From Candidatus Naiadarchaeum limnaeum (GTDB lineage: Archaea; Undinarchaeota; Undinarchaeia; Undinarchaeales; Naiadarchaeaceae): a stretch of 5,590 bases of DNA. The translations under genes were made by a program, and so were the position numbers. A model generated the notes under the pieces. That model searched no databases and was not told where the DNA came from. It was given only the letters and a program-made list of their open reading frames with translations. Below, one piece after another: positions 1 to 5,568 of this stretch; the first letter of the stretch is position 1, and each line of letters starts with the position of its first letter. The stretch spans positions 1 through 5,590 of the forward strand of contig DVAB01000019.1 in assembly GCA_014189685.1 (NCBI GenBank), in the 5' to 3' direction.

Positions 1-516
1 TGGTGTATGAGAAGGCCCAGCTGAGCCAATTTCTACCTCGCCACTGGCAGCATGTAACTTTTCCAATTTTTCCCGCAAGTGCGGAAAATCGTGCAACGGA
101 ATAAACCTATCTTGCAACCCGCGCACTTTTCCAACAGTGAATACAATTCCCATGACCAATACAAAAAATATTGCACCAATAATTAAAACAAACGCAGTGA
201 AAAAACCTTCTGGAATAATGCCAAGAGGCAATAGCACCACCAGCACTCCGCCTATTCCACAAATTCCAGAAAGTGTTTTTGGCTCAAAAGGAAATACAAC
301 TTCAGGGCGAAGTTTTTTTTGTCTATAAAGCCATGCTATAAAAATCCCCATCATCCCAAATCCAATTATAAAGGCTGCAACTGCCATTCCAAAAGTTGTG
401 GAAAGATCGAATTCTCCAGTTGGAGTTGGGATTGTTATTTGCGCGGCTGCAAATCTGAAGCTTAATAAAATAATTAAAATCGTGCTTATTGCCGCAACTG
501 CTTTCTTAATATCCAT
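1..516 (-). CDS. Secretory-pathway membrane protein of unknown function, 5' part (runs off left edge)
   Basis: An uninterrupted reading frame of 172 codons starts at ATG 516-514 and is still open at position 1, so the C-terminus is missing. I do not recognise the family. Residues 1-25 look like a type I signal peptide: K4-K5, a hydrophobic core (about 9-20), then AAA before Q26 as a likely cleavage site. A short Thr/Pro-rich exported stretch (27-40) follows, then hydrophobic membrane segments at about 43-63, 83-103 and 105-128. The segment at 43-63 is followed by a basic patch (RQKKLR, 65-70). After residue 130 the chain becomes charged and soluble, with two His-containing stretches (LHDFPHLREK, 141-150, and LHAASGE, 154-160). 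The start is supported by an in-frame stop upstream with no other ATG in between, and by a TATA-like box about 30 nt upstream. The frame is certain to be coding; the function is unknown. Confidence 0.82.
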   Translation of the reverse strand, partial: MDIKKAVAAISTILIILLSFRFAAAQITIPTPTGEFDLSTTFGMAVAAFIIGFGMMGIFIAWLYRQKKLRPEVVFPFEPKTLSGICGIGGVLVVLLPLGIIPEGFFTAFVLIIGAIFFVLVMGIVFTVGKVRGLQDRFIPLHDFPHLREKLEKLHAASGEVEIGSAGPSHTP

Positions 517-1799: not shown

Positions 1800-1822
1800 C
1801 TTATTGCTTTTTAAAATTTGTT
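1786..1822. terminator. Possible oligo-T terminators at the convergent methyltransferase/dphB ends
   Basis: The stop codons of the two convergent genes are 11 bp apart. Downstream of the methyltransferase the plus strand has T-rich stretches (T5 at 1808-1812, further T runs to 1822). Downstream of dphB the minus strand has a T6 run, the complement of A6 at 1788-1793, inside the methyltransferase 3' end. Archaeal RNA polymerase terminates at T-runs without a strict hairpin. In AT-rich DNA such runs are common, so this call is weak. Confidence 0.3.
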
Positions 1823-2560
1823 TAATTCCAAAGCTTCTCTTTCTTTAAAATGCAATTTTCCAGGAACAATTAAAACATGCATCGGGCCGCCAAAATCTTC
1901 TTTCAATAATTCTTTTACTTTTCCAAATTTAACTAAAGGATTTTCAGAGCCAGCGCGCGCAACTATAACAATTTCTGTATTTTCTGTAAAAACTTTTTTC
2001 TTTTTTTTCTTTTCAATTTCTATTAATTTTTTCATTGCCTCATTTGCGCTCATTAAATTTTCATTTTGTATATCTAAAAATATTAGAGTATGCAAACCTG
2101 CTTTTTTATTTTCAGCCAAAATATCATAAGGCGATTCTGCTTTGAAAAAAGGAATTGAGGTTGCGCGGCCAAATTTGTAAATTTGCAATCCGCTCAATCC
2201 TGCGGCCGCAGTGTAAATTGAGCTTCCGTGCACAACTCTAAATTCAATTCCACCCTTTTTTGCCTCTATTAATAAATCAATGTGTGTTGTTGCAGTTAAA
2301 GCATCGCCTGCAACTAAAATTCCAATATTTTTTTCACGCGCTTCTTGCAAAAAGTTTTTTGTTTTGCCCTCAAACTGCTCGCGGTTTAAAACTTTTATTT
2401 CTTTTCCTATTTGATTTTCCAATTCAGAAATATTTTTCAGCCCTGTCAATCTGCTAGTATAAAATTCCACATATAAAACATCACAATCTTTCGCCTCTTC
2501 CAAAGCTTCTAAACTCATACTTTTTTCATTCCATAATCCTAAGCCGATTAATTTTATCAT
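1811..2560 (-). CDS. dphB: Diphthine synthase (diphthamide biosynthesis methyltransferase)
   Basis: SAM-dependent methyltransferase that methylates the amino group of the 3-amino-3-carboxypropyl-histidine intermediate on elongation factor 2, the second step of diphthamide synthesis in the cytosol. The 249 residues match the tetrapyrrole-methylase fold of Dph5/DphB end to end. Visible landmarks are LIGLGLW at the N-terminus (4-10), VEFYTS (31-36), VAGDALTATTHIDL (83-96), SSIYTAAAGLSGLQIYKFG (113-131), SIPFF (135-139), GLHTLIFLDIQ (155-165), VARAGSENPLV (200-210) and FGGPMHVLIVPGKLHFKEREAL (223-244). Two points differ from the usual family sequence: GDP in the SAM-binding motif is GDA here (85-87), and there is a run of six lysines at 184-189. 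The length is slightly under the usual 255-290. The start ATG overlaps the permease stop codon (ATGA at 2560-2557), so translation is probably coupled. No separate promoter is evident. Confidence 0.95.
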   Translation of the reverse strand: MIKLIGLGLWNEKSMSLEALEEAKDCDVLYVEFYTSRLTGLKNISELENQIGKEIKVLNREQFEGKTKNFLQEAREKNIGILVAGDALTATTHIDLLIEAKKGGIEFRVVHGSSIYTAAAGLSGLQIYKFGRATSIPFFKAESPYDILAENKKAGLHTLIFLDIQNENLMSANEAMKKLIEIEKKKKKKVFTENTEIVIVARAGSENPLVKFGKVKELLKEDFGGPMHVLIVPGKLHFKEREALELNKF

Positions 2561-3513
2561 AGCACAAACCCAATTAGTCCAGCTAATAGCATTGAAATAA
2601 TAACTAGCGCAGCTGGCAAAATTATCAGCCAGGAGAGAGAGACTTTCAAAGCTTGCATAACATTTACATTTTTTCTTGCCAACCCAACTCCTACTGTTGC
2701 CCCAATTAAAGTTTGTGTTGTGCTCACAGGAATTCCTGTTGAAACAAAAGCTATCATAACTAATCCAGCTGCCAACATTGCGATAAACCCTCTGCTTGGG
2801 GAAAGATCTGCAAATTCAACTCCTAATCTATGCGCAGTTTTTGAGCCCCAAGTTATTATTCCCAAAATTAGTCCGCCCACTCCAATTAAAATCAAAGTTG
2901 AAAAGCTAATCTTTCCCCCTAGTAAGCCAATTACAATTCCAACTGAATTTGCCCCAAGTGCAAAAGTTAAAATTAATAATGCTATAAACCCCGGAAGGAA
3001 GAATTTCATTTCAAAAGATTCTATTTTTCTTATACTGGAGTATTCTTTTGCGAACAAACTTTTCATAATGTAGAAAATTGTAAAAGCAATTAAAAGTGCG
3101 CCGAAAGGGCTTAAGAACATAGAGATCAGAACTTTTTCAAAAGTTAAAAAATTTATCTCAGCTCCACTTATTAAAGCATAGCCACCAATCGCTCCGACTA
3201 CTACATAAGTTGTAGAAATTGGAATTCCCCTATAAACAATAATTGTTGCAATTATTACAATTGCGATTAAAACTGATAGCAGGCCGCTTAATTCTAGTCT
3301 AATTAAATCTTTTGAAATTGTATCCACAACCCTATTTGACAGTAACGCAACCCCAAAAATTGCCGCAATTGAAGCAAAAATTACTGCAGTTTGCTTTGGA
3401 ATTTTTGTGCTTCCAAAACTTATTCCAATTGTTGAGCCAAAAGTACTCACTCCGATATTCCAGGCTAAGTAAAGTCCCATTAACACACTTATTACTAACA
3501 GTAATTCCACCAT
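2557..3513 (-). CDS. PiT family inorganic phosphate permease homologue with non-canonical ion-binding motifs
   Basis: An integral membrane protein of 318 residues (about ten hydrophobic segments) with the two-fold inverted repeat of the PiT/PHO4 family, which takes up phosphate with Na+ or H+. Family marks are WNIG-xxx (18-24), RVVDTISKDL (61-70), GIPISTTYVVVGAIGGY (96-112), FALGANSVG (184-192), AHRLGVEFADLSPSRGF (227-243) and GIPVSTTQTLIGATVGVGLAR (260-280). Unusually, both GANDVAN-type motifs lack their Asp (T24 and S190). The positions aligning with the conserved glutamates carry A51 and M246, so transport chemistry may differ from canonical PiT. I place the start at ATG 3513. A TTG at 3555 would add 14 residues, but the TTTAAATTTA box sits 28 nt upstream of 3513 and inside that extension. 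The gene is the first of an operon with dphB (4-bp overlap) and is divergent from a DUF47 gene, the normal PiT partner. Family membership is firm; phosphate as substrate is inferred. Confidence 0.88.
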   Translation of the reverse strand: MVELLLVISVLMGLYLAWNIGVSTFGSTIGISFGSTKIPKQTAVIFASIAAIFGVALLSNRVVDTISKDLIRLELSGLLSVLIAIVIIATIIVYRGIPISTTYVVVGAIGGYALISGAEINFLTFEKVLISMFLSPFGALLIAFTIFYIMKSLFAKEYSSIRKIESFEMKFFLPGFIALLILTFALGANSVGIVIGLLGGKISFSTLILIGVGGLILGIITWGSKTAHRLGVEFADLSPSRGFIAMLAAGLVMIAFVSTGIPVSTTQTLIGATVGVGLARKNVNVMQALKVSLSWLIILPAALVIISMLLAGLIGFVL

Positions 3514-3554: not shown

Positions 3555-4211
3555 ATGGAGATATTGCCTGTATTGCGCGCGGATAAGGGGAAAGAATTTT
3601 ACAAAACTTTAGAAACTTTTATCACAGAGGTTCACTCCTCTGTTAAATATTTAAATGATACAGTGCGCAATTACTGCGATGGAAAATCCAGAGAAGCGCG
3701 CAAATTTGCAAATTTTGTGATTGATTTCGAAACAAAGGCAGATTCCTCAAGGAGAAGTTTGGAAAAAATGCTGTATACTGGTGTTGTCCTTCCTTTTGGC
3801 CGCGGTGCAAAGTATGAATTGCTGGAAAGCGTTGATGATGTAGCTGATAAAGCAGAGCTTGTGGCAAGATTAATTTTAATTGAGCGTTTAAAGGTTCGAC
3901 AAAACTTGAGAAAAGATTTGAAAGAGCTTAGCGGGACAGTTCTGGAAGTTGTTAACAATCTAAAAGAAGCAGTTTTACAACTTGATATAAATTTGGATAA
4001 AGCAGTTGCGCACGCAACGAGCGTTGAGTTGATGCGCGAAAAAGCAAGGCAGATAGAATTCAAATTAATTGAAAAACTTTTTTCAAAAATGCGAGCTGAT
4101 ATAAACATAATTTTGCTTAAAGAATTAATTTCTTTAATAGCAGCAGTTGCTGACAAGGCAGAGGAGGCTGCTGACCGAGTCGTAAGTTTGGCTGTTAAAT
4201 ATCAGGGATAA
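3555..4211 (+). CDS. DUF47 family PhoU-like protein (TIGR00153 type), probable PiT partner
   Basis: A 218-residue cytoplasmic, nearly all-helical protein of the PhoU-like DUF47 group. In bacteria and archaea these genes commonly sit beside PiT transporters and are thought to modulate them. The two-fold helical-bundle repeat is visible. The first half carries FETKAD (58-63), RRSLEKMLYTGVVLPFGRG (66-84) and LLESVDDVADKAEL (89-102). The second half carries RQIEFKLIEKLF (165-176) and ELISLIAAVADKAEEAADRV (190-209). The acidic D/ExxxD clusters (D94-D98 and D200 to D207) correspond to the metal-binding motifs of PhoU proteins. Length is typical of the family. The start has a TATA box 27 nt upstream and no Shine-Dalgarno sequence. 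The gene is divergent from the permease, with 41 bp between the start codons. Its TAA is immediately followed by the complement of the next gene's TAG, with no spacer. Confidence 0.9.
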   Translation: MEILPVLRADKGKEFYKTLETFITEVHSSVKYLNDTVRNYCDGKSREARKFANFVIDFETKADSSRRSLEKMLYTGVVLPFGRGAKYELLESVDDVADKAELVARLILIERLKVRQNLRKDLKELSGTVLEVVNNLKEAVLQLDINLDKAVAHATSVELMREKARQIEFKLIEKLFSKMRADINIILLKELISLIAAVADKAEEAADRVVSLAVKYQG

Positions 4212-5150
4212 CTATTTCCTATAGGAATCCAAAATAATTTTTGCAGCTCCAAGAATTAAAGGTCCAAGTATAATTCCTTTTACTCCGAAAAACAGCGGGC
4301 CGCCTATAAATCCAACAATTAAAATTGCTGGGTGAATTTTTGTGATGTGGCTTGACAACTTTGGAGCTAAATAAAGCTCAAGAATTTGCATAATAACTAA
4401 TGCCACAAGTAGAGCAATTGCGAGTGGATGGTTTTTAAGTAAAATATTGTAAGTGATTAGGGGAATATAAACAATCCATGTTCCTATTATTGGGATTAAA
4501 GCTGCTATGGCAACTGCTACTGCAAGCAGCTCAGCAAATTTCACCCCTAGTATAAAAAATATCCCATAGGAAGTCATCCCAATTACAATTGCGGCCAAGA
4601 TATTTCCAATTATAACTCCTTCTAAGAGATTTTCAAGCTCCTGTATAATTTGTCTCTCTTTTTTTTCTTTTACAATACTATAAACATAGCTGCGAATTTT
4701 CGGCCCGTCTCTAAGGAAGTAATAGATAAGTGAAAGCATTATGAAAAGGTCAATTATTTTTTTTGGTGCAATAATTAAAAAGCCACCCATAGCATTGATT
4801 ATTTTTTGGGTTAAAATATTTGTGGCAGTAGTTATGGTTTGACTTCCACTTCCTTTTGTCAGGGAAACAAGTTTAGCAACAATATCTGATACAAAATTCT
4901 GTATTAAATTCACATTTGCGATTACCGATTGTATAACAATGGCTATTGGAAAAATTATTACAGCAAAAACTGCAAAAGTTATTATAAAAGCAGAAATGGA
5001 GCGCTCTTTTATAAACCTGTTTATTCGCTCAAAAACACCTTTTGTTAAAAAAGTAATTACAATTGCAAAAATTATTGCTCCTAATAAATCAAAGATAATT
5101 GTAAATGCTAAAAAAAGAATTATGATTAGTTTTGCATATTTTAAGTCCAT
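4212..5150 (-). CDS. AI-2E transporter family (UPF0118) membrane protein
   Basis: A 312-residue polytopic membrane protein. Hydrophobic segments lie near residues 7-36 (a long or paired segment), 53-77, 122-147, 176-200, 205-235, 243-262 and 275-306. Family landmarks are YYFLRDGPKI (143-152), EGVIIGNILAAIVIGMTSYG (177-196), LGVKFAELLA (201-210), ALIPIIGTWIVYIP (217-230) and the C-terminal GGPLFFGVKGIILGPLILG (283-301). The family is named after a proposed autoinducer-2 exporter, but members include Na+/H+ antiporters and many of unknown substrate, so the name should not be read as a quorum-sensing role here. The protein is a little shorter than the usual 340-370 residues, with a compact N-terminus. 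The ATG is 4 nt after the stop of the upstream Cys-rich protein, so the two are probably co-transcribed. The gene ends exactly against the DUF47 stop codon. Confidence 0.9.
   Translation of the reverse strand: MDLKYAKLIIILFLAFTIIFDLLGAIIFAIVITFLTKGVFERINRFIKERSISAFIITFAVFAVIIFPIAIVIQSVIANVNLIQNFVSDIVAKLVSLTKGSGSQTITTATNILTQKIINAMGGFLIIAPKKIIDLFIMLSLIYYFLRDGPKIRSYVYSIVKEKKERQIIQELENLLEGVIIGNILAAIVIGMTSYGIFFILGVKFAELLAVAVAIAALIPIIGTWIVYIPLITYNILLKNHPLAIALLVALVIMQILELYLAPKLSSHITKIHPAILIVGFIGGPLFFGVKGIILGPLILGAAKIILDSYRK
4216..4227. repeat. 12-bp perfect palindrome at a zero-spacer convergent gene junction
   Basis: TTCCTATAGGAA is its own reverse complement and begins 5 bp past the DUF47 stop, inside the last codons of the AI-2E family gene. 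The plus strand has a T5 run shortly after (4238-4242). It could take part in termination or be a protein-binding site, but codon constraints or chance could also explain it. Confidence 0.35.
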
Positions 5151-5154
5151 TAAT

Positions 5155-5568
5155 TTAATCCAACAAGGTCGTTAATGTTCCAGAGCAATAGGGCTTTATG
5201 CTTGAGAGGTCTCTAAGCGGGTTTACAACTATGCCAACAAAATCTAGTGGAACTAAGCAGCTCATAGACCTTCCTTTGTAAGGGCGCAGCGTTCCAGTTG
5301 CCCCTTCTACTTTGACACTAAATGAGCAAAATTCTCCTGATTTTCCTGATAAAGCACCAGCAAAAGTGAGTGAAGATTCTCTGCTGCTCGTTGTATAAAT
5401 TCCTGTTGCGCGTGAGCATGCCCTAAATGCATCTGCTAAGCAATCAACTTCTGCCCCGCATTCTTTGCCCCCCCCAATCCCTCCACCTGAAAAAAAACCA
5501 AACCCAAGAAGTCCACCTGTTGCAACTATTACAATTGCAATAATAAGAATCCAGTTTTTCTTTAGCAT
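5155..5568 (-). CDS. Small Cys-rich protein with N-terminal membrane anchor, unknown function
   Basis: A 137-residue protein with a basic start (MLKKNW), a hydrophobic anchor at about 7-26 and a glycine linker (28-34), followed by a domain expected outside the membrane. The domain has six cysteines (37, 43, 51, 81, 104, 128), an even number consistent with three disulfides. The spacing CGAEVDCLADAFRAC (37-51) resembles a motif I associate with short secreted proteins of small-genome archaea, but I recognise no named family. The anchor may be a signal peptide or stay as a membrane tether; there is no lipobox Cys directly after it. The ATG at 5568 is chosen because it gives a classic n-region and anchor. 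The frame has no stop between 5569 and the right edge, so a longer N-terminus cannot be excluded. The codons around residues 25-34 contain G8 and T8 runs. The AI-2E family gene follows 4 nt after the stop. Confidence 0.75.
   Translation of the reverse strand: MLKKNWILIIAIVIVATGGLLGFGFFSGGGIGGGKECGAEVDCLADAFRACSRATGIYTTSSRESSLTFAGALSGKSGEFCSFSVKVEGATGTLRPYKGRSMSCLVPLDFVGIVVNPLRDLSSIKPYCSGTLTTLLD

Follow-up and report, generated by a model that had tools for sequence, protein, structure and literature searches.

The window analysed here, which comprises positions 1 to 5,590 of contig DVAB01000019.1 of Candidatus Naiadarchaeum limnaeum, carries a PiT-type permease gene that is divergent to a gene of the DUF47 (PhoU_div) family, and this pair is flanked by dph5 and by a gene for an AI-2E family membrane protein (Table 1). 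By profile match the permease reading frame is a member of the PiT / PHO4 family (PF01384), with 150.1 bits against a curated cut-off of 33.7; the frame is intact, and its start could be the GTG at 3510 instead of the ATG at 3513. The outer parts of the window, 1-516 (-) and 5155-5568 (-), encode two membrane-anchored or membrane proteins with no Pfam matches. An AlphaFold model of the permease, built from an alignment of four rows and hence of too low depth, has a mean pLDDT of 38.8.

Table 1. Features of the window; codon rows refer to the permease and name the equivalent residue of human PiT2
Feature	Position	Strand	Remarks
dph5 diphthine synthase	1811..2560	-	TIGR00522, E 1.6e-88; 4-base overlap with permease 3' end; conserved neighbour
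PiT-family permease, 318 aa, without any of the four canonical acidic transport residues	2557..3513	-	PF01384, E 1.1e-43; TmPiT 6l85, E 2.9e-19
Codon of S264	2722..2724	-	PiT2 S593, critical serine of second PxSTT motif; kept
Codon of M246	2776..2778	-	PiT2 E575
Codon of S190	2944..2946	-	PiT2 D506, second GANDVAN Asp
Codon of L186	2956..2958	-	PiT2 H502
Codon of S100	3214..3216	-	PiT2 S113, critical serine of first PxSTT motif; kept in window, Phe in f4 relatives
Codon of A51	3361..3363	-	PiT2 E55
Codon of T24	3442..3444	-	PiT2 D28, first GANDVAN Asp
DUF47 (PhoU_div) gene	3555..4211	+	PF01865, E 6.9e-25; divergent to permease, 41-base gap
AI-2E family membrane protein	4212..5150	-	PF01594, E 2.9e-47; conserved neighbour by synteny

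For human PiT2 a critical role in transport has been reported for seven residues, namely D28, E55, S113, H502, D506, E575 and S593 (PMC3126765), and our site assignments are based on this mutagenesis together with alignment. The window protein reads T, A, S, L, S, M and S at these sites, which means that five of the seven residues are replaced, including all four acids expected of a Na+-coupled PiT protein (D28, E55, D506 and E575), and that the critical serines of both PxSTT motifs are kept. In pairwise alignment with TmPiT (PDB 6l85) T24 lies opposite the Asp of GANDVAN, A51 opposite the Glu of FLEFLG and M246 opposite the Asp of SRGFTVDF, with no gaps around these three sites, and S190 is set against the second GANDVAN Asp by MAFFT. 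The spacing agrees as well, with 27 residues separating both D28 from E55 in PiT2 and 24 from 51 in the window protein, and 18 residues separating both E575 from S593 and 246 from 264. An alignment artefact as the source of the losses is rejected by the pairwise and the multiple alignments. The GANDVANA signature, which has an Asp in each half of the protein, is replaced by GVSTFGS and GANSVGI, a failure shared with CysP and other PF01384 members, and the seven-site alignment revealed no conserved new acid at the motifs. The preliminary description had placed four acid losses at residues 24, 51, 190 and 246 by eye, and every one of these placements proved right, although its residue list missed the fifth loss (H502 to L186) and left the kept serines S100 and S264 unstated. 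Its notion that the Glu residues are conserved in functional PiT proteins was on the other hand overstated, since E. coli PitA, which is annotated as a metal phosphate:H+ symporter, has N and Q at these two positions.

A scan of genome contigs gave only three relatives of the same family (f4), and the window protein forms one clade with these proteins (from G003-G005) at a support of 100/100. The named records of the relatives (L051-L053) include Undinarchaeales, the order to which the window genome belongs, and UBA55 archaea. Identity within the clade is about 38% overall; the three relatives likewise lack acids at all four sites, T24 and S190 are invariant, and the first critical serine is, unlike in the window protein, replaced by Phe. 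Purifying selection acts among the relatives, with dN/dS values of 0.09-0.16 among L051-L053. The gene order AI-2E, DUF47, PiT, dph5, DUF357, including the divergent DUF47-PiT pair, is common to the window and the relatives, which is also an argument for correct binning of the 5.6-kb contig. Only in the window are dph5 and DUF357 separated by an unrelated methyltransferase gene. In the UBA55 relative L052 the DUF47 gene (2197-2989) is split into two frames, possibly through an assembly error. In the tree the clade lies on the side of TmPiT and stays there after removal of long-branch rows, but its exact sister group is not settled because all its branches are long. We can thus retain the earlier suggestion of a subfamily, as opposed to decay: homologues with the same substitutions at T24 and S190 do form a single, fully supported clade within the order, with conserved gene order and low dN/dS values among the relatives.

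The loss of the acids is however not peculiar to this clade. Our sample combined a PF01384 survey with matches to the window-clade profile and held 111 archaeal PiT rows, the frequencies in which are not unbiased. The two Glu positions are acidic in only 25 and 35 of these rows, both Asp are kept in 77 and neither in 19; the Glu positions are weak markers and the Asp positions better ones. None of the four acids is present in 18 rows, made up of the window protein, its three relatives and 14 proteins of families f15, f16, f21, f50 and f105, with the placement in f16 being less sure as its first motif is aligned with gaps. In the f16 proteins (L028, L029, L030) this first GANDVAN motif is collapsed and DUF47 is still adjacent. 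The state with neither Asp requires at least seven changes on the tree, four of which are forced by well-supported branches, and Asp loss therefore looks repeated in archaeal PiT proteins. The five other acid-less families sit on branches separate from the window clade, and joining the clade to the acid-less f21/f105 group is not rejected (AU p 0.23). In this latter group (L114, L129, L133, L138, L139, L143) the first PxSTT motif is replaced by YPMPTAF, and the surroundings are without a DUF47 gene. The clade nearest to that of the window in two trees, f6, f36 and f87 (L009, L010, L011, L063, L068, L077, L080, L082, L084, L085), keeps both Asp, lacks both Glu and has ISGSD/SPTQ in its PxSTT motifs; DUF47 is missing from the roughly 1.5 kb around its genes.

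The rarity implied in the preliminary description is accordingly not supported, since acid-less proteins occur in five other archaeal families and bacterial CysP is likewise without the Asp pair. The same description would have been overturned by many functional archaeal PiT proteins with the same substitutions, and because of these five families that objection has partly materialized: acid-less proteins do exist there, which may or may not be functional. The novelty is smaller than was claimed, given the other acid-less archaeal proteins and the known Asp-less CysP, and the window protein is a variant that selection still maintains and that is unusual without being unique. Nor can the DUF47 partner serve as a distinguishing mark, because DUF47 lies next door for most archaeal PiT proteins of the TmPiT group and for several acid-less ones; such a pairing is commonplace and hardly informative on the loss of the acids. 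Only the divergent arrangement is limited to the window clade among the DUF47-PiT loci compared, the others being codirectional.

The window permease is the only PiT protein found in the draft genome, which is 98.08% complete, and single-family searches of this draft found no PstB over cut-off, no PstS-like protein and no Na_Pi_cotrans (NptA). The phylum has been described as probably host-dependent and poor in transporters (PMC7414124), and because of this probable host dependence the cell's phosphate may come from the host or from nucleic acids.

The best explanation, to which we give an even chance, is that the window protein is a functional oxyanion transporter of the PiT fold, whose substrate is most likely phosphate, whose Na+ coupling is altered or lost and which has DUF47 as its partner. 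The retained serine/threonine motifs (PxSTT) would bind the anion, whereas Na+ coupling of the TmPiT/PiT2 type would be weakened or absent because Thr and Ser replace the two Asp and the Glu sites hold no acid; this would leave coupling to protons or a facilitated flow along the gradient, and the divergent DUF47 protein would be its likely partner in regulation, as in many other archaeal PiT systems. In favor of this are the homology to PF01384 and TmPiT, the kept serines, the invariance of T24 and S190, the dN/dS values, the tree position on the side of TmPiT, the status as sole PiT protein where the Pst and NptA families were not found, and the retention of the DUF47 pair in relatives. Against it count the critical role reported for the Asp and Glu residues of human PiT2 (PMC3126765), the replacement of the first critical serine by Phe in the f4 relatives, the fact that CysP, the one characterized Asp-less PiT protein, carries sulfate (PMC5840216), and the possible supply of phosphate from host or nucleic acids. 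A different coupling ion or a different substrate, as suggested in the preliminary description, would be plausible. The further-reaching notion that the protein is a separately evolved, Na+-independent (uncoupled or proton-coupled) sole phosphate importer of a probably host-dependent archaeal lineage, and would show the acidic hallmark residues of PiT to be dispensable for phosphate transport, is a tentative one that we consider possible but doubtful.

It appears unlikely that the protein transports a different oxyanion, for instance sulfate as does CysP of B. subtilis. CysP is a sulfate permease and sets a precedent for an Asp-less PiT protein (PMC5840216), with G and N at the two Asp sites (Bacillus, L056; model NF053884), and the missing first critical serine of the f4 relatives could likewise hint at another substrate. 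CysP is also the top NCBIfam match of the window protein, but this is uninformative, since the window protein reaches only 66.5 bits against a curated cut-off of 400 and Asp-bearing PiT proteins score higher on the same model (about 134 bits); a genuine CysP retrieved from a cysH-cysP-sat-cysC operon scores 534 bits. This protein (L056, 3989-5053) carries the record annotation 'inorganic phosphate transporter' in spite of its sulfate-assimilation operon. Uniting the window clade with CysP is furthermore rejected (AU p 0.008), as is uniting it with the whole CysP group (AU p 0.022), and CysP membership is ruled out by the model scores and the tree. The neighbours of the window gene are DUF47 and dph5 instead of sulfate-assimilation genes, and single-family searches of the window's draft genome turned up neither ATP-sulfurylase nor SulP, and PAPS reductase did not reach its cut-off. 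Conversely, in the same-order genome G001 (75% complete) ATP-sulfurylase and PAPS reductase genes lie near each other (contig C25; L047, L055), yet no PiT protein and no SulP was found in it. A phosphate transporter that is still cation-coupled, with its cation site formed by the polar residues T24, S190, N189, T101/T102 and T266, is decidedly unlikely as well. The N and Q at the Glu sites of the annotated symporter PitA do indicate that not all of the acids are required, and T24 and S190, which are invariant in the clade, could provide oxygen ligands, but for human PiT2 a critical role of both Asp has been reported (PMC3126765) and no conserved new acid has appeared at the motifs.

It may also be envisaged that transport has been lost altogether and that the protein is a sensor or transceptor reporting phosphate to DUF47, a notion in agreement with the replacement of five of seven critical residues and with a DUF47 gene that stays divergent and adjacent. 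This is nonetheless improbable, since no other phosphate importer is recognized beside this sole PiT protein and there is thus no obvious transport system for a sensor to regulate, and acid-bearing PiT proteins pair with DUF47 too. A decaying or non-functional paralogue is scarcely conceivable: the permease is indeed less conserved (38% identity to relatives) than DUF47 (about 50%) or dph5 (53-57%), but the frame is intact, the genome holds no paralogue, and decay is rejected by the dN/dS values of the relatives and by the gene order and substitutions shared with them.

Should acid-less proteins indeed carry phosphate, the supposed hallmark of PiT transport, namely the Asp and Glu positions, would be dispensable, and the acid-less proteins scattered across archaea would constitute a natural test set for the cation coupling of the family. 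If they do not, such genes are misnamed where they are annotated as phosphate transporters, and the route by which these cells obtain phosphate comes into question.

Among known systems TmPiT shares with the window protein the PiT fold, as judged by sequence homology, and both PxSTT motifs, but its residues at the four acid sites are D, E, D and D, against T, A, S and M in the window protein, and it has a His before GAND where the window protein has Leu. E. coli PitA is likewise a PiT family member with no acid at either Glu site, but in contrast to the window protein it keeps both Asp and the His. CysP resembles the window protein in family, in having lost both GANDVAN Asp and in having no acid at the Glu sites; it belongs however to a separate clade, is encoded in a sulfate-assimilation operon and not next to DUF47 and dph5, and has Pro in place of the second PxST serine, which the window protein keeps as S264. 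The proteins of f15, f16, f21, f50 and f105 are, like the window protein, devoid of all four acids, and those of f16 and f50 together with two of f15 furthermore have DUF47 adjacent, just as is seen in the window.
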